Assembly: GCA_021199235.1 (NCBI GenBank)
Contig: JAJQIL010000037.1
Coordinates: 1-64,000, forward strand
DNA length: 64,000 nt
Reading direction: 5' to 3'
From: Lachnospiraceae bacterium
GTDB taxonomy: Bacteria; Bacillota; Clostridia; Lachnospirales; Lachnospiraceae
Positions 6,486-64,000 of this stretch are shown here, piece after piece. How positions within the stretch are numbered: position 1 is the stretch's first letter; each line of letters opens with the position of its first letter. The position numbers and the translations under genes were made by a program. The notes beneath the pieces are model-generated. The model was not told the origin of the DNA. It saw only the letters and a program-made list of their open reading frames with translations, and did not search any database.

Positions 6486-8465
6486 TTAACTAATTATAAG
6501 GCATACTTCTTTCTGACCTTCCTCCAGATTTAAGATACAAAGATTCTCATATACTTCCACCTGATCCGTACAGTCTTCTCCGTTTACCAATACCTGATGC
6601 AGTGGGGTCTCCATGATCCAGCCAATTGTTCCACTCTCATGAATAACAGCCATCAACCGCTTCGCACATCCCTTTTGATACTCCACTGCCTGAAATCCTG
6701 CATATTTATTTATCAATCCCAGAACTTCAACCTGCGTTTCTACAGGCAGCACCCAGTATAGCGCATAATCCGATGCCTCGATTTTATCTCGATACTCTGT
6801 TCCTGCCTTTAGCAGTGTTGCTTTTTTCGCCTGATAATCGTACAGCCAGTAATCTTTTTCTTTGCAAAGTTCCGGAACCAACTGCGCTGAAACTTCAAAT
6901 ATCTGTGACTGCCTTGTCAGATTATATACGGCTATCACACCTGCTTTTCTTCCGGCAGAGATTCCGTAATTATGCAGTTTCAATACTCCATTTTGGCGTG
7001 GATCTGCAAAGATACAGTCCTCGGAAGGCTTTGCGGAACGTTCCAGCATCAAAATTTTCCCATCAAAATATGTCAATGACTTCAGAATCTCCGGATCCGA
7101 TTCTCCGATTTTATCACTAACATAAATCGGACCTCCGCTGATTGCACGAAGAACACTATGCTTCTGTGCATCTTCATGTCTGCTCCAGAACATGTCCCAG
7201 TCACAGCAGTAAATTTCATTATGATATAAGGAATTATATGCATTCTGCAACAGATGTTCTGTAAATCCATCTTCCTTTTCCGGCATAAAATCATCGCTGT
7301 TCCTTGACAGAGCCATGGTCGGGCGAGCCAATATATTTTCCATTGCCATCCCCATACAGTTTATCACAGCACCATCCATGCGCGATGCTCCCTGTTCCAA
7401 AGCAAGACTTAGTCCTCTTGCTGCTGTAGTAAGGTCTATGTCATTTTCAAAATAACAGGCTGTAGAACTCTGTCCGTCTACTTTCACAAAACGGATCCCC
7501 TGTCGAAACAGTTCCTCATACCAGTCTGCATAAAATCCGGATCCATTCATTGGATTGGGAAGAATTTTGTGACTTCTGGTTTCATACAGATATTCTTTCT
7601 CATTTTTATAAAGATCAGAATTTTTCTGAATCCCATTCCAAAATCCTGCCAGTGCATGCCATACTCCTACCCACTGAATATCTGCCTCTTTTTTTAGTCG
7701 ACCCACCATAGCAGAAAAACCATTCGGAAATTTATCGCGATCCGGAATATATTCACAAAGATTATCCTCTTCCACCGATAGCCAGCCATCATCTATCAGC
7801 ATCCATTTTACAGGAATTTTCTTATTCCGAAATTCCTCAGCCTTTTTTATGATCGCGTTCTCGTTCATGTCACGATAAAATGCATTCCAGCTGCACCAGC
7901 CAAGGTAGTGGAACATTTCCGGAATACGCCGTTCTTCTCTCGGACGTATTCCTTTATCACGTTCCAGCCACAGAAAGGCTTTTCGTATCGCTTCATATAC
8001 TGTTTTGCCTTCTGCGATCAGGTACACCGGCTCCTCAATCCTATTCTGACCGCCAATGCCAGATGTCAGTTCAAAACAGAGTTCTTCTTTTGTTCCAGGC
8101 ATCAAGTATGTCTTAAACTGTTCGCCAACCACAGGAATCATACATCTGTACGTTTCTTCATATTCCATCAAAAGAACCTGCGTCTTTTCAGGTATCTGTC
8201 CAAACTCACGAATGAAGGACGGGCGTGTCCACCATTCATTATACAGATAAAACGCTGTCATCCTCTGTGGTTTTTTTACCGGTATCCAGAGCCTGACCGG
8301 ATGTTCCATTCTAAGATTTTTATTCTCCCGAAACGCCTCGTTTTTTATATTAATTTTGATACTCCCCAGCAGACAGTCCTCCTGCAGACATTCCCGGAAT
8401 TGAATATCCTCTGCACGTTCACCGGTAATCTGTTCTGATTTCTGACAGTTGATCTCGTATCTCAT
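6486..8465 (-). CDS. GH36-family glycosidase (raffinose synthase/Sip1-like, alpha-galactosidase-type)
   Basis: HYLGWCSWNAFYRDM...KWMLIDDGWLS...FVKVDGQSS; MRYEI start at 8465 likely, ORF extends to 8495. Confidence 0.8.
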   Translation of the reverse strand: MRYEINCQKSEQITGERAEDIQFRECLQEDCLLGSIKINIKNEAFRENKNLRMEHPVRLWIPVKKPQRMTAFYLYNEWWTRPSFIREFGQIPEKTQVLLMEYEETYRCMIPVVGEQFKTYLMPGTKEELCFELTSGIGGQNRIEEPVYLIAEGKTVYEAIRKAFLWLERDKGIRPREERRIPEMFHYLGWCSWNAFYRDMNENAIIKKAEEFRNKKIPVKWMLIDDGWLSVEEDNLCEYIPDRDKFPNGFSAMVGRLKKEADIQWVGVWHALAGFWNGIQKNSDLYKNEKEYLYETRSHKILPNPMNGSGFYADWYEELFRQGIRFVKVDGQSSTACYFENDIDLTTAARGLSLALEQGASRMDGAVINCMGMAMENILARPTMALSRNSDDFMPEKEDGFTEHLLQNAYNSLYHNEIYCCDWDMFWSRHEDAQKHSVLRAISGGPIYVSDKIGESDPEILKSLTYFDGKILMLERSAKPSEDCIFADPRQNGVLKLHNYGISAGRKAGVIAVYNLTRQSQIFEVSAQLVPELCKEKDYWLYDYQAKKATLLKAGTEYRDKIEASDYALYWVLPVETQVEVLGLINKYAGFQAVEYQKGCAKRLMAVIHESGTIGWIMETPLHQVLVNGEDCTDQVEVYENLCILNLEEGQKEVCLIIS

Positions 8466-8491
8466 ATTTCTGCCATGTTCCCTTCTGGTTG

Positions 8492-10711
8492 TCACTCTGA
8501 TTTTTTAAAATAAATCTGGAATGCAGGATAATTCCCTCTTTCTATCGGATCACACTCTCCAATAATTTCCTTTATCACATATCCGCCGTACATCAGCGCC
8601 GCACCAGTCAGTTTTATATCGGTACCTGCTACCTGATAAAGTGCAGTCTCTTCTAGTCCCTGCAGTCTGATACACGGAAACTGCGGATTTGCCTGTACAT
8701 GTGTTACCACAACATTCAGTAATGCCTCTGATTTGTCCTCAGCAGCAAATTCCCATGCGGTATAATAATCATCCTTCTGCGGATTCGTCAGACGATAATA
8801 GCTTCCTTTTTGAATCAGCCAATAGTACTCATGAAAATCTTTGATCTGCTGACGTATCTTATCTTTTTCATCTTCTGTCAACTTTGTAAGATCAAGTTCG
8901 TATCCAAAGGTTCCAGACATCGCAACAACACCTCTGGTATGTAAGGAAGCGACTCTTCCAGTCTGATGATTCGGTACTGCAGAGACATGACTGCCCATAC
9001 TGCTGATGGGATATCCATAGGAAGTTCCATGTTGAATTTTCAGTCGCTCGATTGCATCCGAATCGTCAGAGCACCAGATTTGCGGACAATAATAAAGCAT
9101 TCCTGCATCAAATCTGCCCCCGCCTCCGGCACATCCTTCGATCATAAGATCCGGAAAAGCCTTTAAGAGACGCTCCAGAAGGCTGTATGTTCCCAACATA
9201 AATCTGTGAGCTGTTTCCCCCTGACGCTCTGCAGGCAAAATATTGGAATATGCATTTGCCATGGAGCGGTTAAAATCCCACTTTACATATTCAATGTTTG
9301 CATCGGAAAGCACTTTACTGATACAGTCAAAAAGATAATCTATAACTGCCGGATTCCCCATATCAAGAAGCATCTGTTTTCTTGACATCATTGGCTTTCT
9401 GCCCGGATCTGCAAGAACCCACTCCGGATGCGCTCTGTACAGGTCTGAATCTTCATTGATCATCTCAGGCTCAAACCAAAGTCCGAACTTCATGCCAAGT
9501 GCGTTAACTCCATCCGCAATTACCTTCAGTCCTCCCGGCAGCTTCTTTTCATTGACGACCCAGTCTCCAAGACCGGAGTTATCATCATCACGCTTTCCAA
9601 ACCATCCGTCATCGAGAACCATCATCTCAACGCCCAGTTCAGACGCTGCGCTGGCAATATCCAGAATTTTCTGTGTATCAAATCTGAAATACGTTGCCTC
9701 CCAGTTATTAATCAGAACCGGCCTTCTTATAGTCTGGTATTTCGGAGGGCAAACATTATCTCTGATAATTTTATGATAATTCTGACTCAAAGCATTCAGA
9801 CCCTGACTACTGTAAGACAAAATTACCTCTGGGGAATAAAACTCATCCTGCTTTGTCAACTGCCACGAAAAATTCTCATCATGGATTCCTACAACCACCC
9901 GTGTACTTCCTGCCTGATCCATCTCAGCTTCTATTTTGTGATTTCCGGAATATACAAACATAAAGCCATAGCAATCTCCCTGGTGCTCCGTCGCATCCTT
10001 TTCAGAAAGAATCACAAACGGATTCTCATGATGAGAGCTCATGCCGCGTCTGGAAGCAATTGTGTGAATATCGTGTGTCAGTGAAATTCTTTCCATCTGA
10101 CGTTCCATACAATGTCTTCCATGAAAATGCACCAGATCAAATTCCCCATATGGAAAATCGATGCTCATGGACGCCGCTTTTTCCAGTACGAGTGTTTCAT
10201 TTCCGATATTTTTATAAACTGCCCGCCTCGTGATGATATCTTTTTCTTCAAAGACATCATAGATCAGACTTACCTGAAGTCCTGTAATCTCATCTGCAAG
10301 CTCAATCCTGAGTTCTGCTGCCATACAGTCATTCTGTCTTACAGACGGCAGGCCCGGAATCGCTGTTTTCTCTTCAGCAATCACATGAGAAACATATCTT
10401 AAGTCACAGCTTCTGCTTCCATCTGCTGCTTTTACTGACATGGAACTGACTCTATAGTCTCCCACACCGCATCCCGAAAATTCCTGTGGAAGTACATCCA
10501 AAGACATTCCCCGGTCTGACTTTCGCTCATACGGGTTCCCGGAAAACCCCCGATCAGGAAATGTATTCTGAAACCGCATATCCTGACCGAAGGTTTTTCT
10601 GCCATAATACAAATGCTGTACAATTCCAATTTCATTCACACTGATCTGGTACTCTGTATTTACTGTTTCTAATATAAATGTGTTTGCATCCTGATTAAAT
10701 CGAACACCCAT
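8492..10711 (-). CDS. Alpha-galactosidase, GH36
   Basis: MMVLDDGWFGKRDDDNSGLGDW; GLWFEPEMINEDSDLY; YVKWDFNRSM; EGCAGGGGRFD. Confidence 0.96.
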   Translation of the reverse strand: MGVRFNQDANTFILETVNTEYQISVNEIGIVQHLYYGRKTFGQDMRFQNTFPDRGFSGNPYERKSDRGMSLDVLPQEFSGCGVGDYRVSSMSVKAADGSRSCDLRYVSHVIAEEKTAIPGLPSVRQNDCMAAELRIELADEITGLQVSLIYDVFEEKDIITRRAVYKNIGNETLVLEKAASMSIDFPYGEFDLVHFHGRHCMERQMERISLTHDIHTIASRRGMSSHHENPFVILSEKDATEHQGDCYGFMFVYSGNHKIEAEMDQAGSTRVVVGIHDENFSWQLTKQDEFYSPEVILSYSSQGLNALSQNYHKIIRDNVCPPKYQTIRRPVLINNWEATYFRFDTQKILDIASAASELGVEMMVLDDGWFGKRDDDNSGLGDWVVNEKKLPGGLKVIADGVNALGMKFGLWFEPEMINEDSDLYRAHPEWVLADPGRKPMMSRKQMLLDMGNPAVIDYLFDCISKVLSDANIEYVKWDFNRSMANAYSNILPAERQGETAHRFMLGTYSLLERLLKAFPDLMIEGCAGGGGRFDAGMLYYCPQIWCSDDSDAIERLKIQHGTSYGYPISSMGSHVSAVPNHQTGRVASLHTRGVVAMSGTFGYELDLTKLTEDEKDKIRQQIKDFHEYYWLIQKGSYYRLTNPQKDDYYTAWEFAAEDKSEALLNVVVTHVQANPQFPCIRLQGLEETALYQVAGTDIKLTGAALMYGGYVIKEIIGECDPIERGNYPAFQIYFKKSE

Positions 10712-52217: not shown

Positions 52218-52484
52218 CTCCTAAACCATTCGTTCTTTTATCTTGGTCATATTATACAAAAGCCGGTCTTCCTTTTCAATTCGTTATGTCTTAGCTTCAT
52301 TCCGTTTTGGAATCCATTCGGACATTCTTTTTGACATCGTTTCCATCATCTGCTATACTACCAGCTATAAAGAATATCATCCTTTGCAAAGGGTCGGAAC
52401 CGATACGGATTTTCTCTGAAGTCTGTTATCGAAGCTTTGCATTTTTGCACCATTCTCATGGTGCTCCGGAAGCGAGGTACCATT

Positions 52485-53345
52485 ATGGAATTAAATTATA
52501 TCAACGAATTTGTCGTCCTGGCACGCGTACTGCATTTTCAGGAAGCGGCGGATCTTCTTTTTATCAGCCAGTCCTCTCTCTCAAAGCACATCAAGTCGAT
52601 TGAAACGGACCTGGGAGAGGATCTGTTCATCCGCTCCAAAAAGGGAGCTGTCCTGTCTGATTTCGGAAAAGCATGGCTTCCCTATGCAGAGCAGATGGTC
52701 AGCGTCCAGAAGGAATACACGCAGAACCTGCTTGACCGGGAATCCGATGCGCCGGAGGTCAACATCGGATATATTCCTCTTGTGACCCTCTACAATTTTA
52801 TTCCTTTCTTTAAGGATTACAAAAAGCAGCATCCACACTGCCAGTATTCGTTTCTGCAGGGCGGCGACCGGGAACTGCTCGACTGGCTGCAGCAGAAAAA
52901 GGTCGATTTTATTCTGACCGGGAATTATGATATCCCGGAGGATCTCTATCAGAAGCAGTTTTATACTTCTGATACCCTCTCTGTCGTAGTACCCGAGGCG
53001 CATCCTCTCGCCGGGAAAAAGACGGTCTCTCTGGATGACCTGAAAAATGAATCCCTGATTGAGTTCCGTCACATGAGTTCCCTGCGCGACAGCATCCGCA
53101 GGGCGGATCCGTCCTTTGATCTGCGCCCTTCCATCTCCGTAGACAAGGCCTCTGTTCTCTTTGACCTGATCCAGAAGGGGATGGGACTGTCAATCCTGAC
53201 GCACAATATGTCTTCCCATCTGGAGATGGAAGGAACTGTGATCCGTCCCATCACGCCGGATATTTTCTATGAGATTTACATGGTCTACCCGGTTCGGAAA
53301 ACGTCTCTGGTCGCCAGAGAATTTGCTGCCTTTCTCAAGGGGTAA
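52485..53345 (+). CDS. LysR-family transcriptional regulator
   Basis: MELNYINEFVVLARVLHFQEAADLLFISQSSLSKHIKSIETDLGEDLFIRSKKG; divergent from esterase/Opp block. Confidence 0.95.
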   Translation: MELNYINEFVVLARVLHFQEAADLLFISQSSLSKHIKSIETDLGEDLFIRSKKGAVLSDFGKAWLPYAEQMVSVQKEYTQNLLDRESDAPEVNIGYIPLVTLYNFIPFFKDYKKQHPHCQYSFLQGGDRELLDWLQQKKVDFILTGNYDIPEDLYQKQFYTSDTLSVVVPEAHPLAGKKTVSLDDLKNESLIEFRHMSSLRDSIRRADPSFDLRPSISVDKASVLFDLIQKGMGLSILTHNMSSHLEMEGTVIRPITPDIFYEIYMVYPVRKTSLVAREFAAFLKG

Positions 53346-53407: not shown

Positions 53408-54253
53408 TTATTTTGTAATGTACGAGAAGCTGTCGCCGGACTGCACATATTTCATCGGCACTTCACAGCCAATGACATTTGGCAGATACTGAACCATGTA
53501 ACGCATGCCCAGCTCTTCCACATTGAAGTGTCCCATCTCCAGTATGGTTTTCGGTATCCCTGCCGCGCAGGAATCACGGACATAGGCACTCAATGTCCAG
53601 TCGATGATCTCAAACGGAATCAGCACGTCCGCCTGCTCCCGCCTTACTTTTTTCATCGTCTCATTATCCGGAATCTCTGTCTTGTTGCCAAACGGTCTGG
53701 CTCCCTGCACATGCTCACAGAAGAACACTCTGCGGACGATCGTGTCATGGCTTCCTACTACACGGATACCGGAAATATTCAGCTTCTTCATCAGGAAATC
53801 CGCCAGCTCCGGCACTGTTGTCTGCGGAATCTCATAGAGCAGCGGCTTTTTCGTATCCCCGACGACATATTCTTTCCAGCCAAGCTCATTCATAATTCCG
53901 TAGAAAATGCCGTCAATGTTCGCTCCGCCATGGCCCCCGTGGATGTGGTCATGATCCCGGTAGACAACGATCTGGTTCTCTTCCAGCAGTTTTCTCTTTT
54001 CCTCGTATACCGGATCGTCTTCCAGCCAGTCCGTCGTATCCTCGTGGCTGTAAAAGAGCGGCTCGTGGCAGATGATCAGGTTGGCATTTTCCTGCACCGC
54101 TTTCCGGATCACTTCGATCGACGCAAAACAGGTGAGGATGATTCCGCTGCACTCGGCGTCCGCGTTCCCGATCTTTACAACATCGCAGGTATGCGGGTGC
54201 TCCAGCGGCGGGTGAAACGCTTCCAGCTTCTGAATAATTTCTCTTATTTTCAT
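53408..54253 (-). CDS. Nif3-like dinuclear metal center protein
   Basis: ANLIICHEPLFYSHEDTTDWLED; VYRDHDHIHGG; EMGHFNVEELGMRYM. Confidence 0.85.
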   Translation of the reverse strand: MKIREIIQKLEAFHPPLEHPHTCDVVKIGNADAECSGIILTCFASIEVIRKAVQENANLIICHEPLFYSHEDTTDWLEDDPVYEEKRKLLEENQIVVYRDHDHIHGGHGGANIDGIFYGIMNELGWKEYVVGDTKKPLLYEIPQTTVPELADFLMKKLNISGIRVVGSHDTIVRRVFFCEHVQGARPFGNKTEIPDNETMKKVRREQADVLIPFEIIDWTLSAYVRDSCAAGIPKTILEMGHFNVEELGMRYMVQYLPNVIGCEVPMKYVQSGDSFSYITK

Positions 54254-54340: not shown

Positions 54341-54643
54341 TCAGGGCAGTTTTCCCTTTGTCAGTTCCTTAATCACACCCGGCTCTGTGACAATCATGCG
54401 GTTCATTGGAGAGGACGTCGCTCCGCGGAAAGCTGTGATCGGGTAGCCGTAGGTGTCATTCGACATCCCTATGGCACGTCCGCGGCAGTTCAGATAGCAC
54501 TGTCCGCAGCTCTGGCAGTTTTCCGGATAGGCCAGCACGGATTTGCGCGCCTTCTCATCGAAGTAGAAAACATCCATCGGACAAATCTCTACACAGTTTT
54601 TGCATCCGATGCAGCGATTCAGATCAATTCTCACTACGCTCAT
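54341..54643 (-). CDS. 4Fe-4S ferredoxin (AprB-like small subunit)
   Basis: CIGCKNCVEICPMDVFYFDEKARKSVLAYPENCQSCGQCYLNCRGRAIGM; overlaps start region of flavoprotein gene. Confidence 0.9.
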   Translation of the reverse strand: MSVVRIDLNRCIGCKNCVEICPMDVFYFDEKARKSVLAYPENCQSCGQCYLNCRGRAIGMSNDTYGYPITAFRGATSSPMNRMIVTEPGVIKELTKGKLP

Positions 54644-56586
54644 TTTTGCTCCCCCTTTCCTTTCCGGCCTCTTTCTGGCAGCTGAAAGCCCATTTTTTCC
54701 GGCTCTCCGGGGAAATAAAATACATAGCGGAACTGATAAGCTTCCTCTCTGTCGCCAGCCCAGGCGTCCGGAACCGGCACCTTATCAAACGTACTCTCTC
54801 CGTTTTCTGCCTTTCTCTGAGTGATATAGCATAAAAAGTTCTCATCATCCCGGAACGGATAATCCTCGCGGTAGGTCGACCCGCGGCTCTCCTTTCGTTC
54901 CAGACCGGCGCGGAGCTTTAATTCCGCGGAGAGTACCTTGTGTTTCATTTCCAGGCAAAGACGCAGGTCGTGACTGGTAGCGGCCTGCAGCTTCGGTACC
55001 ACATGATCACGCATATATTCCACCTGCACCAGCGCTGCCTTCAGGGTTTCCTCGCTTTTTACCACCGTAATCCAGTAAGGCGCCATGATGGAATGCAGCA
55101 CGTCGCGCGCCCAGTTCGGGTCAAAACCATTTTCACGGCTCAGCGGGGCAAGGATTTCTTCTTTTTTCCGCTGAATTTCTTCCTCCGGCAGCGATGCAAA
55201 GCTTTCACCGGCTGCATAAGAGGCTGCCGCGCGGCCCGCATGGTCGCCATCAATGGAAGTAAAGCAGGAGGTAAAACCAACGCCGCACGGGTAAGCGGAA
55301 CCCGACGGAGATGTCGCATGGATTCCGTCTCCGGCCACATAGAGTCCGGCAATCTCTGTTTTTCCGTCTGTCTCTCCAAGTCCGCAGAACACGCCTGATG
55401 TAAGATGGCAGCACATACCGGTCGCCGCTCCCGCCAGCGTACTTGCCGCTACCGGCGTACTCATTTTTCCGGAACGTATCTCTTCCGGATCCGTCTCATA
55501 GACCTTCGAACCGCCGCGGCGGGTATAATTGGCTGTCGCCACGTTCTGAATCTCACTTCCATTTGCAAGCGGCACGCCATTTACCGAGTTCTGTACCCGC
55601 TTCATGACCATCGCGTACCCTTTCGCCGACGCGTATCCTGCAGCATTCTCCAGATCTACGTCGCCGCCGCACAGCCAGATGTTTTCCAGATACTGCCAGT
55701 GGTTATCCAGAAATACGTTGCCCGGCGCCTGGCTGGAGGTCGTGTGGAAATCCTCGAATTCCTTTCCCGTAATCGGAAGTCCCATCTCCCAGGCCATGTA
55801 TTCTCCGTCAAAGGTATCGCCGCCGACCGGATACCCCGTCGGCTTATAGCTTCCGCCTCCGGTCGCCATGACCACCGCTTTCGCACTCACAGTAATGACC
55901 TGTCCGCTCGGAACATGGAACGCGATCACCCCGCAGATTTTTTTTGCAGCTTCCGCCGCCTGGTTCTCTGTTTCCATTTCCGGCTCTGCGGCCCCGGCAA
56001 TCAGATCTGTCACCATCGTGTGCTCCAGATACGGAATCTCATAACGATTCAATACCTCAATCCATTTTTTATGACGGTCAAATTTGTCATACATCTCCCG
56101 GTATCCGACAAAATCTTCCCGCTCGTAAAAATCGCCGGCCTCCGCAGCCTTCGGATACTGGGCAAGAATCCCCCAGTCTGTCAGGCGCTCATAGATGCCT
56201 TTGGATTCCTTCAGCCAGCACTCATACCAGCTCAGATTACACAGATAGTCGCCGCCGCGTTTCATCGCTTCCTTAAAGGTTTCCTCATCATCTCCGCGCT
56301 CCGGGTCGAACCAGCGAAAGCTTGACGGCCAGGGAGAGAGTCCGGAATAGCCGGGTCTTCCCTTATCAATCACGAGGACATTCTGTCCTGCCTCTTTTGC
56401 AGAAACGGCTGCATTCAGCCCCGCGAACCCGCAGCCGATCACCACAACATCCGCCTGATAAGCCTCTTCATAAGGACATGTTACCTTTTCCGGTCTCGGC
56501 AGCTCCATCGTACGGGGCGTACGTGGCGTTTTGTTATTATCTTTCATGCTGTTCACTTCCTTATTCTCCATCCTTAAAATGTACAC
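54640..56586 (-). CDS. FAD-dependent oxidoreductase (fumarate reductase/AprA-like flavoprotein)
   Basis: ADVVVIGCGFAGLNAAVSAKEAGQNVLVIDKG; VVMATGGGSYKPTGYPVGGDTFDGEYMAWEMG; LYVAGDGIHATSPSGSAYPCGVGF. Confidence 0.9.
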   Translation of the reverse strand: MYILRMENKEVNSMKDNNKTPRTPRTMELPRPEKVTCPYEEAYQADVVVIGCGFAGLNAAVSAKEAGQNVLVIDKGRPGYSGLSPWPSSFRWFDPERGDDEETFKEAMKRGGDYLCNLSWYECWLKESKGIYERLTDWGILAQYPKAAEAGDFYEREDFVGYREMYDKFDRHKKWIEVLNRYEIPYLEHTMVTDLIAGAAEPEMETENQAAEAAKKICGVIAFHVPSGQVITVSAKAVVMATGGGSYKPTGYPVGGDTFDGEYMAWEMGLPITGKEFEDFHTTSSQAPGNVFLDNHWQYLENIWLCGGDVDLENAAGYASAKGYAMVMKRVQNSVNGVPLANGSEIQNVATANYTRRGGSKVYETDPEEIRSGKMSTPVAASTLAGAATGMCCHLTSGVFCGLGETDGKTEIAGLYVAGDGIHATSPSGSAYPCGVGFTSCFTSIDGDHAGRAAASYAAGESFASLPEEEIQRKKEEILAPLSRENGFDPNWARDVLHSIMAPYWITVVKSEETLKAALVQVEYMRDHVVPKLQAATSHDLRLCLEMKHKVLSAELKLRAGLERKESRGSTYREDYPFRDDENFLCYITQRKAENGESTFDKVPVPDAWAGDREEAYQFRYVFYFPGEPEKMGFQLPERGRKGKGEQK

Positions 56587-56649: not shown

Positions 56650-59232
56650 TCAGAAGAGTTCCTCATGCCTCGCGTGTTCCATCACTGCTTTTGTGACATC
56701 CGCAGTCTTATCCGGGCGCCCGATCAGCACCGCACCCTGCAGGGCGCTTCCCATGAACCAGTACTGCTCCTGGCTGTTGTCCACATCGTCGACGGTTTTT
56801 ACCAGTCGATAAGGTACGCCACTTTGCTTACCCGGATCTCCGATCGCAAAAAGCGTGGTCCCAAATCCATCCAGATTCAATCCCAGCAGCTGCGACTCGT
56901 ACGCCAGCCGTTCGCCCGCCGCGTTCGCGCCCGCAATGCGGCCCTGCTCGGATGCTTCCGCCCAGAGCTGGAAATTCACGCCGTCGTACTGCGCACAATC
57001 TCCGCAGGCATAAACAGAAGGAATGCTCGTCTCCATAAAAGCGTTCACAACAATCGCACGCTCCACCTGCATTCCGGCATCCTGTGCTGCTTTCACATTC
57101 GCCCGGTTGCCGCAGGAGACGATCACGAAATCCGCCGGGAAGATCTCACCGGTCTTCAGCTTCACTCCTGTCGCCCGTTCTTCGCCGGTAATGCCTTCAA
57201 TCTGCACGCCTTCCAGGCATTCCACGCCCAGCGCCGCCATCTTTTTGCGCAGCACTGCGGCGGAATCTGCGTCCGCCTGCCTTCCGATGATCTGAGGCGC
57301 GGCTTCCAGCACCGTCACATGAATCCCGTTCTTCAACAGCTCGCTCGCAGCCTCCAGTCCCAAAACGCCACCTCCGATCACAACTGCGTTTTTGGCGGTT
57401 TTCATCCAGTCCTGAATTTTCCGGCTGTCCCAAAGATGACGGATCGTCACCACTCCTTCTTTTTGCCAGCCTTCAAACGGCGGAATGAAACACTCCGCAC
57501 CGGTTGCAAAAATCAGGCGGTCATAAGGAATCTCGTCGCCGCTTTTCGCAGCATGGACGACCTTCCGGTCGGCATCAAGCGCATCGACTGTCTCCCCCAG
57601 CTGCAGGGAAATTCTTCGTTCCTCATACCATCCGGCCGGGTGAAGATAAAGCTCCTCGTCCGGCGCGTCGGCAATGCTGAGATTTTTCGTCAGCATCGGA
57701 CGATGGATGGGCAGATAATCCTCCGCTGACAGGATCAGGATTTCACCCGTCTGATCTCTCTTGCGGATGGCCTCAGCCGCTGATACACCGGCGACACCGC
57801 CGCCAAGAATGACATAGCGCAGGTCGGTATCCTTCTGATAGGAAATTTCTTCCTCTTCGACCGGCACGCACTGGTCAAGTCCCACTCCGCAGACCGGACA
57901 GGTGCCAAGCGAGGCATCAAAAATTTCCCCGCAGACCAGACATTTTACAAGCTTCGGCTTTCTGGGATTTGGTACCCGGCGGGCGCTGCATCCGACGCCA
58001 AAGCCATAATTCCCGGCATTTTTCAGATCATTTTCCGTGAGCTCCCCTGTAAAAAAGCTGCTCTGGATATTTAAATCAAATCCAAGGAACGCCAGATGCT
58101 CTCTTAATATGTCCGCGTTGTCATCCTGCGTGGAAACCTTATAGAAAATCGACGCCAGCTTACCCTTGCAGCTTTCCGCTTTTAAAGACGTCACCACATC
58201 CCAGATTGCCTTTGCAGGAGTCCCCTTCGAGATCGTCGTTCCAAGAAGCAGGACATCTGCCGAGAGCGCCATGCGGATCACTTCATTACGATCTGTGGTG
58301 GAAAGGTTACAACGTGTGACGTTGGAAACCTCAGCCTCCTTCAGGCCATTTTCCACACAGGCCGCGTAATCTGACAGTTCGTTCGTCCCTTCATATATCA
58401 TTACCACATGCGGATCCGCAGAAGCTCCCGTTTCCGCCATCCCGGCCGCCAAAACTGTGTCCGGCCGCTCTTCTGGCCTTCCGGCTGATTCCCGAAGTGC
58501 CGCACTGCTCTGCTGCTGGTAGAAATCCAGCATTTCCTCCAGTCTCCCGCCGTTCACCGCCGGTCCGACAGACGGAAAGACAGCTGTCACTTTCTGTTCC
58601 CGCACAAACGCGGCCGCGTTGCCCGCATCAATCGCTCTGCCGGAGACTGCCAGATCTTCAAAATAATCTTTCATCCCCAGATGCCATTGAATATCTCTTT
58701 CGCTTTCCGCCTCCGGAAGCTCCAGGCCGCTGTACAAAGTTCCAAATGCATCGGATGCGTAAACGCGGTGTTCCTCCTCATCCAGCACATACAGAGCCGG
58801 ACTGAGGTTCCCGCCGCCGATCATCTGGAAACGGAACAAACTTCCTGAAAAAGTCAGGCTGCGGTTGTTCCGGATCTCCAGGCTCTTCGTCCCCTCCGGC
58901 AGGATTTTCTTCAGCCGGTCAAGCACCGGATACGCGGCAATGATCTCAATCCCGGCATTCTCCTGCAGAGCACGTAAAACTGCTCTTCTGCTGTTCTCCT
59001 CTGTAAACACGACCAGATGGTCAATCCGGTCAAAGGAAACCGTCCGGCAAATCTGCTCCATCCATTGTTCCACACAGTCATCCGGCACGGTGCCAATCAG
59101 CTGGTACCTCTCCTGCGTCTGAACCAGATACGAGCTAAATGTCAGTCCGTTTCCCGCATACGACTGATTCCGGAACACGCGGAGCCCGCTTCTCTTCACT
59201 CCAACATTCCGGACGTCATGGCTTTTGTCCAT
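56650..59232 (-). CDS. Fused ODP/FprA-like domain + flavodoxin + rubredoxin-like + NADH:rubredoxin oxidoreductase
   Basis: N-terminal FprA-like fold signature VYASDAFGTL; flavodoxin segment VVMIYEGTNELSDYAACVENGL; rubredoxin-like CLVCGEIFDASLGTCPVCG; NROR module YVILGGGVAGVSAAEAIRKRD...VVIGGGVLGLEAASEL; ATG 59232 preferred. Confidence 0.88.
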   Translation of the reverse strand: MDKSHDVRNVGVKRSGLRVFRNQSYAGNGLTFSSYLVQTQERYQLIGTVPDDCVEQWMEQICRTVSFDRIDHLVVFTEENSRRAVLRALQENAGIEIIAAYPVLDRLKKILPEGTKSLEIRNNRSLTFSGSLFRFQMIGGGNLSPALYVLDEEEHRVYASDAFGTLYSGLELPEAESERDIQWHLGMKDYFEDLAVSGRAIDAGNAAAFVREQKVTAVFPSVGPAVNGGRLEEMLDFYQQQSSAALRESAGRPEERPDTVLAAGMAETGASADPHVVMIYEGTNELSDYAACVENGLKEAEVSNVTRCNLSTTDRNEVIRMALSADVLLLGTTISKGTPAKAIWDVVTSLKAESCKGKLASIFYKVSTQDDNADILREHLAFLGFDLNIQSSFFTGELTENDLKNAGNYGFGVGCSARRVPNPRKPKLVKCLVCGEIFDASLGTCPVCGVGLDQCVPVEEEEISYQKDTDLRYVILGGGVAGVSAAEAIRKRDQTGEILILSAEDYLPIHRPMLTKNLSIADAPDEELYLHPAGWYEERRISLQLGETVDALDADRKVVHAAKSGDEIPYDRLIFATGAECFIPPFEGWQKEGVVTIRHLWDSRKIQDWMKTAKNAVVIGGGVLGLEAASELLKNGIHVTVLEAAPQIIGRQADADSAAVLRKKMAALGVECLEGVQIEGITGEERATGVKLKTGEIFPADFVIVSCGNRANVKAAQDAGMQVERAIVVNAFMETSIPSVYACGDCAQYDGVNFQLWAEASEQGRIAGANAAGERLAYESQLLGLNLDGFGTTLFAIGDPGKQSGVPYRLVKTVDDVDNSQEQYWFMGSALQGAVLIGRPDKTADVTKAVMEHARHEELF

Positions 59233-59403: not shown

Positions 59404-59492
59404 CCCTCGCCGGGTGGCATCCCACGCTTCGCATGGGATAGGCCCTCGCCGGGTGGCATCCCACGCTTCGCATGGGATAGGCCCTCGCCGGG
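59404..59492. repeat. 39-bp tandem repeat, about 2.3 copies
   Basis: CCCTCGCCGGGTGGCATCCCACGCTTCGCATGGGATAGG starting at 59404, 59443 and (partial) 59482. Confidence 0.95.
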
Positions 59493-59760: not shown

Positions 59761-61209
59761 TCAGAACCCTGCTTTTTTCTTTGTCTCCTTCCGAATGCTC
59801 AGGAAACTGTAGATAAACGCCAGCACTTCTGAGGTCCACATCGCGTACCAGGTATAGGAGATTCCGAGGAAGTTTGTGAACACCCATACAAGCGGCACAA
59901 GCACCACCAGCTGACGGATCGCGCCGCCGATCATGTTGATCACGCCATTGCCAAGGCCAGAGCCGAAGTAGCCGAAAATGATGGTCATCGTGGCAAAGAC
60001 AAAGGTCACGGAAATAATCCGCAGTGCCGGTACGCCGATCGCGAGCATCTCTTCACTTGCCGCGAAGAGGCCAAGCAGCTGCTTCGGGAATGCCAGGAAA
60101 ATCACCGTGCCGATCAGCGCCATCACGATACCGGCCGGAACAACGCATTTCCACGCCTGTCTGATCCGGTCTTTATTACCGGAACCAAAGTTGAACCCAA
60201 CAATCGGGATCGTCGCCTGGCCAAGTCCGTTCATCGGCATCATCAGGAAGTTCTGCAGCTTGTAGTAGACACCGAAGAACGCTACTGCTGTTGTGGACAC
60301 AGACATCAGAACCGCATTTACAGCAAAGGTCATCACGCTGCCGATCGCCTGCATGACGATGGTCGGCATGCCGACGCGATAAATCGCCTTCACATCGTCC
60401 AGGTTGAAATGATAACCTTTGAAATGTACGTGGATCACCGGGTTCTTCGTCTTATTCAGCACCAGGGCCACCACCGCGCCTGTACACTGTCCGATAACGG
60501 TCGCAATCGCAGCGCCGCGAATGCCCATTTCCGGGCAGCCAAGCAGGCCGAAGATCATGATCGGATCCAGGATAATATTGATGACCGCGCCCGAGATCAA
60601 TGAAACCATGCTCAGGATCGTGTCGCCGACCGCCTGTAAAAGCCGCTGTCCGTAGGTCTGAATAAACGTACCATAGCAGAAGATCACGCAGACCTGCATG
60701 TACTGAATGCAAAGCTCTCGAAGCTCCGGATCACTGGTCATCAGCGACGCGATCGGCTTTGAGAAAAAGATCCCGACCAGAGAGAAAATCAGGGCTGACG
60801 CAATGTTCAGAATCAGGCCTGTGGTAGCCGCCCGGCAGGCATCCTCCTCCTTCTTCGCACCGACATATCTGGACAACAGAGAATTCAATCCGACATTGGT
60901 ACCGACACCGACAGCGATCATCAGGAACTGCACCGCATACACGAGCGAGGTGGCGGTCAGCGCCTGCTCCGAATATCTCGATACAAAAATGCTGTCCACA
61001 ATATTATAAAGAGACTGCACCAGCAAAGACAGCATCAACGGTACAGACATCGTCAAAAGCAGCGTATTCATCGGCATGACTGCCATTTTATTCTGTGAGC
61101 CGCCCGCGCCATGCGCATTATTTCCACCCACGTTCTGTCCGCCAGCCGCATCCTTTCCTGCACCTGCGGATGCGTTTTGTCCTGCCTGTTTCGTTTTACT
61201 CTTTCCCAT
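59761..61209 (-). CDS. MATE-family efflux transporter
   Basis: 12-TM pattern; MPMNTLLLTMSVPLMLSLLVQSLYNIVDSIFVSRYSEQALTATSLVYAVQFLMIAVGVGTNVGLNSLLSRYVGAKK. Confidence 0.96.
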   Translation of the reverse strand: MGKSKTKQAGQNASAGAGKDAAGGQNVGGNNAHGAGGSQNKMAVMPMNTLLLTMSVPLMLSLLVQSLYNIVDSIFVSRYSEQALTATSLVYAVQFLMIAVGVGTNVGLNSLLSRYVGAKKEEDACRAATTGLILNIASALIFSLVGIFFSKPIASLMTSDPELRELCIQYMQVCVIFCYGTFIQTYGQRLLQAVGDTILSMVSLISGAVINIILDPIMIFGLLGCPEMGIRGAAIATVIGQCTGAVVALVLNKTKNPVIHVHFKGYHFNLDDVKAIYRVGMPTIVMQAIGSVMTFAVNAVLMSVSTTAVAFFGVYYKLQNFLMMPMNGLGQATIPIVGFNFGSGNKDRIRQAWKCVVPAGIVMALIGTVIFLAFPKQLLGLFAASEEMLAIGVPALRIISVTFVFATMTIIFGYFGSGLGNGVINMIGGAIRQLVVLVPLVWVFTNFLGISYTWYAMWTSEVLAFIYSFLSIRKETKKKAGF

Positions 61210-62339: not shown

Positions 62340-63242
<903 letters not shown>

Positions 63243-64000
63243 TTACAGCTCTTCCTGATCCAGCCAGGCATCCAGTGCACCGCCCATCATGTTAAACGCT
63301 TCCATTGATTCTGCCGGAAACATACTGCCTGTATTGGGGAGCTGCACCCAACGCACTTCTTTTTTCACCAGCGGCCGCAAGTCTCCATCGGCACATATGA
63401 TGCGGACAGACGCTGCATTGGCCTGCCTGACAAAGTCATCCTCTCCGGTCAGCTTCTGATCACCAGTCTCCATACAGGACCTGTCCATATCATAAAAACT
63501 GAGCACCCGGATCTTTGTTTTTCCGCGGCGAAGTAATTCCCGGCGGATCGCGTTGGCCGTAAACTGCTCCCCAACGATCAGAATTTCCGGCTCTGTATCC
63601 ACATCATTTTCTTTTCTCTGATCTTCATTCGGGCTCGCGGCAGACTCAATCAAATCGACATCTATCCTTTGTTTCTCTCCCGAATATTCCGTGTCAGTCA
63701 CTGGAACGGCTTCTTTTAACCTGATCTTCAGTGTCGCCGTAAAGTCCGCACCGAACGGCGCTCCTGCCAGATAGGGGATCCCATATTCGCTCTCCATATA
63801 CCTGGCCAGGCGCAGACCGGATTCGTTTACTACCAGGTTCAGCGCCGCGGCAGATGCCAGCTTCAGATTTTCTGTCGTCTCCTTCCATCCCCAGCGGGAG
63901 AGAATCTGAAATCCTTCCTGCTTCAAAAGTGCCTCCAGATCGGCAAACGATTCCTTTGCCCAGTCAATCGTATTGGCGCCAAGAATATTCAGGGATCCCG
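63243..64000 (-). CDS. Nitrogenase component 1 (NifD/K)-like protein, partial, runs past right window edge
   Basis: My reading through 63927-64000 stays open: GSLNILGANTIDWAKESFADLEALLKQEGFQILSRWGWKETTENLKLASAAALNLVVNESGLRLARYMESEYGIPYLAG...; adjacent to NifH-like gene. Confidence 0.82.
   Translation of the reverse strand, partial: GSLNILGANTIDWAKESFADLEALLKQEGFQILSRWGWKETTENLKLASAAALNLVVNESGLRLARYMESEYGIPYLAGAPFGADFTATLKIRLKEAVPVTDTEYSGEKQRIDVDLIESAASPNEDQRKENDVDTEPEILIVGEQFTANAIRRELLRRGKTKIRVLSFYDMDRSCMETGDQKLTGEDDFVRQANAASVRIICADGDLRPLVKKEVRWVQLPNTGSMFPAESMEAFNMMGGALDAWLDQEEL

Follow-up and report, generated by a model that had tools for sequence, protein, structure and literature searches.

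The stretch of DNA analysed here, 64,000 nucleotides from a Lachnospiraceae bacterium (hereafter the window), carries a gene for a fusion protein with the layout of an FprA-type flavodiiron protein (FDP), in which the motifs that normally hold the di-iron site have been replaced. The locus raises the question of whether such a protein can still reduce O2 or NO and, if not, which function has kept it in the genome.

Domain layout and descent of the fusion protein

The gene is an 860-aa ORF on the minus strand (56650..59232) with an ATG start at 59232. Its start and frame are conserved in relatives, and conservation within the clade begins at Met1. A longer ORF from 59502 was rejected, as it spans a 39-bp tandem repeat upstream of that boundary. 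The repeat itself (59404-59481) consists of two perfect tandem copies between a MATE gene and the fusion gene and gives rise to the spurious N-terminal extension. Promoter and terminator scans yielded matches at chance level.

Four domains follow one another, all encoded on the minus strand: a metallo-beta-lactamase-like (MBL, ODP) domain (residues 1-240, 58513..59232), a flavodoxin-like domain (274-413, 57994..58413), a short rubredoxin (425-460, 57853..57960) and an NADH:rubredoxin oxidoreductase (NROR; 470-860, 56653..57825). A linker of variable length joins the first two (241-273, 58414..58512). The order of core, short rubredoxin and NROR is that of Class F FDPs.

Proteins of this kind, which we call pseudo-FDPs, were found in 12 of the 47 genomes of the genus, namely that of the window and those of eleven sister species. 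They form one clade (support 100/100) on a long branch (2.35), whose exact placement relative to Class F is not settled by the tree. Canonical-type relatives occur in 38 other genomes of the 397 sampled in the family.

The idea that the motifs were wrongly assigned and that the N-terminus is no FDP core draws on the database searches: Pfam matched nothing in the first 420 residues of the window protein (neither ODP nor flavodoxin), and Pfam and NCBIfam together recognised its NROR half alone, with rubredoxin at most marginal. Against it, profile-profile comparison (hhalign) aligned the whole core with the Class F core over 383 columns (probability 99.85, E 9e-31), and an hmmsearch of the PDB with the core profile returned flavodiiron structures as the sole matches. 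Additionally, three of eight pseudo-FDPs match Pfam ODP (PF19583), albeit weakly (best E 4.4e-4), and full-length identity to canonical relatives is 33-37%, reaching 37% with one Class F protein. The full-length homologue at 33%, a Class F protein from another family of the same order, has HTEPDH, DVFG and GHGP intact. A misassignment is therefore hardly conceivable, and the window protein is best regarded as a diverged, degenerate descendant of Class F FDPs. An AlphaFold model of its core, built from a two-row alignment, had a pLDDT of 34, too low to be of use, and was set aside.

The catalytic sites and the electron-input half

The ligand positions were read from an alignment of eight pseudo-FDPs with 32 canonical FDPs from relatives; a second alignment, of all 12 pseudo-FDPs with 19 canonical Class F proteins, gave the same result. 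The seven di-iron ligand columns are H/E/D/H/H/D/H in 32/32 canonical FDPs and F/E/N/S/N/D/V in the window protein. The H-x-E-x-D-H motif is replaced by F76-T-E78-E-N80-S81-R82 (58987..59007, minus strand), with H, E, D and H corresponding to F76, E78, N80 and S81. On the same strand, the His of LHWP is N142 (58807..58809), the Asp of the DAFG motif is present as D161 (58750..58752), and the His of GHGP is V222 (58567..58569).

Across the eight aligned pseudo-FDPs the columns hold F, E/A/S, N, S, N/T/K, D/E/T/A and V/M/I/A. The two ligands still seen in the window thus drift in the 12-species clade, the Glu to Ala or Ser and the Asp to Glu, Thr or Ala. The full ligand set is absent from 12/12 pseudo-FDPs and present in all 32 FDPs and all 19 Class F proteins; HTEPDH was found in 19/19 canonical-type relatives examined, and H-x-E-x-D-H in 29/29 loci examined from the phylum.

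The MBL domain contains no His or Cys that is invariant among the 12 pseudo-FDPs, which makes it unlikely that a metal site of the usual type has taken over and led us to reject a new His/Cys site. At the sequence level, loss of the di-iron site from the clade is shown, and there is strong support for the view that the N-terminal domain does not act as an O2/NO reductase.

These results agree in most points with an earlier sequence-only reading of the window, which had noted the ORF and its coordinates, FTEENS and SVGP in place of the metal-binding motifs, the CLVCG and CPVCG pairs and the NROR module, and had concluded that the reductase activity was gone. Its motif assignment is borne out by both alignments and by the whole-core profile comparison, and the alignment showed no invariant His or Cys that could serve as an alternative metal ligand. 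It had also described DAFG as kept; this holds for the window, but the motif is no conserved remnant, since its Asp is Glu, Thr or Ala in three relatives.

The same reading took the flavodoxin domain to be intact, and here the alignments contradict it: two of three FMN-binding loops are destroyed in 12/12 pseudo-FDPs, whereas all 32 canonical FDPs and all 19 Class F proteins retain theirs. The phosphate loop (Y-x-S-x-Y-G-x-T) is replaced by YEGTNEL (58375..58395, minus strand), where G-T-N-E-L, shorter by one residue, takes the place of S/T-x-Y-G-x-T, and no S/T-x-x-G-x-T is left, whatever the gap placement. In the third loop, YKVSTQ (58126..58143, minus strand) stands in place of GSYGWS; at the position of its Trp, which 32/32 canonical FDPs have, all 12 pseudo-FDPs carry Thr. 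The second loop keeps T-T and has lost its final T. FMN binding is improbable because of the replaced phosphate loop and the Trp-to-Thr change, and we infer that the FMN site is probably gone as well. Even canonical Class F proteins can be near-devoid of FMN as purified (PMC9364112), and sequence alone does not reveal occupancy.

The claim that the electron-transfer modules persist thus fails for the flavodoxin domain and stands for the other two. Cys431, Cys434, Cys445 and Cys448 of the rubredoxin are invariant across the clade, in the two closely spaced CxxC pairs of the short, rubrerythrin-type form. The FAD and NADH motifs of NROR (GGGVAG and GGGVLG...E643) are likewise invariant, and the window protein matches Pfam Pyr_redox_2 at E 8e-60. 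NADH to FAD to rubredoxin is the part of the pseudo-FDP predicted to be still active.

Selection and the surrounding cassette

All 12 reading frames are intact, which rules out a frame error or an assembly artefact as the cause of the losses. Nei-Gojobori dN/dS among pseudo-FDPs is 0.15-0.28 for MBL, 0.06-0.18 for flavodoxin, 0-0.07 for rubredoxin and 0.03-0.10 for NROR; for the linker it is 0.4 to >1, around 1 and noisy. These values rule out a pseudogene. The survey of homologues that had been proposed for this locus shows losses common to all 12 genomes, under purifying selection.

The domains, however, rank in the opposite order of conservation to that in Class F. At 50-60% NROR identity, Class F pairs have mean identities of 66% for MBL, 71% for flavodoxin, 74% for rubredoxin and 56% for NROR, whereas pseudo-FDP pairs at 70-80% NROR identity average 53%, 68%, 96% and 78%, respectively. 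The core is thus better conserved than NROR in Class F and less conserved than NROR in pseudo-FDPs, yet its dN/dS is low. This suggests that the catalytic constraint on the core has been lost and that some constraint is left. The genome also encodes a separate canonical FDP at another locus, which can fill the ordinary FDP role.

Downstream of the fusion gene, on the same strand, lie genes for a 648-aa flavoprotein (54643..56586), a 100-aa 2[4Fe-4S] ferredoxin (54341..54643; its start overlaps the 3' end of the preceding gene) and a NIF3/DUF34-like protein (53408..54253). A LysR-type regulator of the cassette is encoded on the plus strand (52437..53345), followed by two esterase genes and by what looks, from ORF sequence only, like an ABC transporter. 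This gene order is conserved in the genus. Upstream, a MATE-family transporter (59761..61209, minus strand) is the neighbour in most, not all, genomes.

Two further features of the window were recorded. A NifH-like gene (above the nifH equivalog cut-off) lies beside a NifD-like gene at 62340-64000, and no further nif genes were seen in the vicinity; the pair adjoins the pseudo-FDP operon in several relatives and not in others. An Rfam GA-cis RNA (RF02987; 25238-25320, plus strand) overlaps a minus-strand ORF that resembles an ABC transporter ATPase.

The neighbouring flavoprotein combines FAD_binding_2 with Succ_DH_flav_C. It scored 48.9 bits against the AprA NCBIfam equivalog cut-off of 641.75 and is also far below the FrdA and SdhA cut-offs, and its predicted assignment goes no further than the AprA/FrdA/SdhA superfamily. 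In the genus, the pseudo-FDP and this AprA-like gene (type I cassette) occur in the same 12/47 genomes and are adjacent by coordinates. Among the 397 family genomes, a search at E 1e-60 for flavoproteins of this group returned that of the window and one other (46% identity).

Paralogous flavoproteins (46-51% identity) sit in other cassettes. In type II (genomes G008 and G033, with a related arrangement in G256), the AprA-like gene lies next to a 2Fe-2S protein and an 801-aa fusion of FAD_binding_5 (an XDH-type FAD domain), Fer4_20 and Pyr_redox_2; LysR and esterase/lactonase genes are present as well. The fusion is an unrelated NAD(P)H-oxidoreductase in the slot that the pseudo-FDP fills in the window. 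It is mainly this swap of donors that leads us to read the pseudo-FDP as an electron supply, a reading that the swap suggests and does not prove.

Type III paralogues (L098, L100-L104; ORF of about 650 aa) have a twin-arginine signal and no adjoining donor or Fe-S gene. A linked donor is thus not obligatory for the flavoprotein family. The NIF3 proteins of the G008 and G033 cassettes are about 82% identical to that of the window, and their presence in both cassette types suggests that NIF3 is specifically linked to the AprA-like family.

Two type II loci (L105:6669-14652 and L106:6228-14297) encode LysR, a lactonase, a 253-aa DUF7305-like protein, the AprA-like flavoprotein, the 2Fe-2S protein, the 801-aa fusion and NIF3. 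The architecture of the fusion, in which the Fer4_20/Pyr_redox_2 NAD(P)H module interrupts the XDH-type FAD domain, looks unusual.

Possible role of the core and comparison with known systems

In Class F enzymes, electrons pass from FAD to Fe(Cys)4, FMN and finally the di-iron site (PMC9364112; for the C. difficile enzyme, PMC6033852). Once FMN and di-iron are lost, rubredoxin would be the last carrier and would need another acceptor; the most evident candidates are the ferredoxin and the flavoprotein encoded next to it. We consider it probable that the pseudo-FDP is a scaffold for a supply line from NADH through rubredoxin and ferredoxin to the AprA-like flavoprotein. NADH to FAD to rubredoxin would remain working; gene linkage suggests that electrons leave at rubredoxin for the 2[4Fe-4S] ferredoxin and reach the FAD of the flavoprotein, the putative acceptor, which would then reduce or, run backwards, oxidise a substrate. 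The dead core would be retained as the platform on which the complex is built, dimerises or docks. A bolder version, which we put forward tentatively and hold to be less probable, assumes a new NADH-driven reductase of several subunits, the AprA-like protein being the catalytic one; this reductase could not do without the metal-free and flavin-free core, which would serve it as a platform for docking or regulation and might carry a new ligand site at F-T-x-E-N-S-R.

The sequence-only reading had left the choice between a scaffold and a new activity; we favour the former and keep the latter as a lesser option. A new activity or ligand site around F-T-x-E-N-S-R, for instance one that binds the operon substrate and is fed by rubredoxin-NROR, would explain why F76, T77, E79, N80, S81 and R82 are invariant in a domain that otherwise evolves fastest, and 75 MBL positions are invariant among the 12 sequences. 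It is nevertheless unlikely: the same domain lacks an invariant His or Cys from which a new metal site could be built, its dN/dS exceeds that of any other folded domain of the protein, and we found no homologue with known new chemistry.

The opposite proposal, that the core is a relic being lost and that rubredoxin-NROR alone matters, rests on a second copy of the pseudo-FDP type in genome G010 (L043, around 7161-8504). There, an in-frame deletion has removed almost all of the core, and about 20 N-terminal residues run straight into a rubredoxin-NROR that stays open, with a dN/dS of about 0.12 against its closest relative. This copy fits a separable rubredoxin-NROR unit. However, it is a single case, has a NIF3-like fragment nearby and no adjoining AprA-like gene, carries changes at residues invariant elsewhere (C581G, W589R and G751D) and may itself be decaying, whereas 12 species have an intact core on which purifying selection acts. 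We judge the proposal quite unlikely.

A heterodimer, in which NADH electrons pass to the di-iron site of a canonical partner, would have a precedent, as non-canonical Flv1/Flv2 are thought to pair with Flv3/Flv4 (PMC4390876), and the genus does have canonical FDPs. Yet FDP dimers pass electrons from the FMN of one monomer to the di-iron of the other, and the pseudo-FDP probably has no FMN. Moreover, the operon has no canonical FDP gene linked to it, and canonical FDPs occur throughout the genus, pseudo-FDPs in roughly a quarter of its genomes. We regard this arrangement as highly improbable.

On the supply-line reading, what was once an oxygen reductase now seems to power a different enzyme. 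If true, this would be a clear bacterial Class F case in which both catalytic cofactors were lost, selection was kept and the electron-input half was re-addressed. The pseudo-FDP lends itself naturally to testing which functions the FDP core has apart from catalysis, and the locus draws attention to an uncharacterised cassette for an AprA-like reductase in which the NAD(P)H donor is interchangeable. For annotation, domain order alone is insufficient to count Class F-like genes of gut-type Lachnospiraceae as O2/NO reductases.

Among known systems, AprAB and the FrdA-SdhA superfamily with separate donors resemble the window in the succession of a FAD_binding_2 and Succ_DH_flav_C protein and a 2[4Fe-4S] ferredoxin, although the flavoprotein scores far below their cut-offs. 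A literature search, incomplete in coverage, found no report of a ligand-less FDP in Firmicutes. The flavodoxin domains of Flv1/Flv2 retain FMN. Photosynthetic organisms are known to maintain FDPs that have likewise lost the canonical di-iron ligands, namely Flv1/Flv2 (Class C) of cyanobacteria and plants, but these belong to another class, have a flavin-reductase domain in place of rubredoxin-NROR and are paired with Flv3/Flv4 (PMC4390876).

Class F proteins, such as C. difficile CD1623 (PMC6033852) and Trichomonas vaginalis FDPF1-3 (PMC9364112), share with the pseudo-FDP the same four domains in the same order, the short-spaced rubredoxin, the FAD and NADH motifs of NROR and homology over the full length. 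The pseudo-FDP differs from them in its seven lost or unconserved ligand positions, two lost FMN loops, inverted order of domain conservation and operon with an AprA-like flavoprotein and a ferredoxin. Finally, the supply of electrons by NROR and rubredoxin, as in the NROR-Rd-FprA system of C. acetobutylicum, follows the same chain from NADH through FAD to Fe(Cys)4; in the pseudo-FDP, however, this chain is fused to a non-functional FDP core and has apparently been re-addressed to another acceptor.
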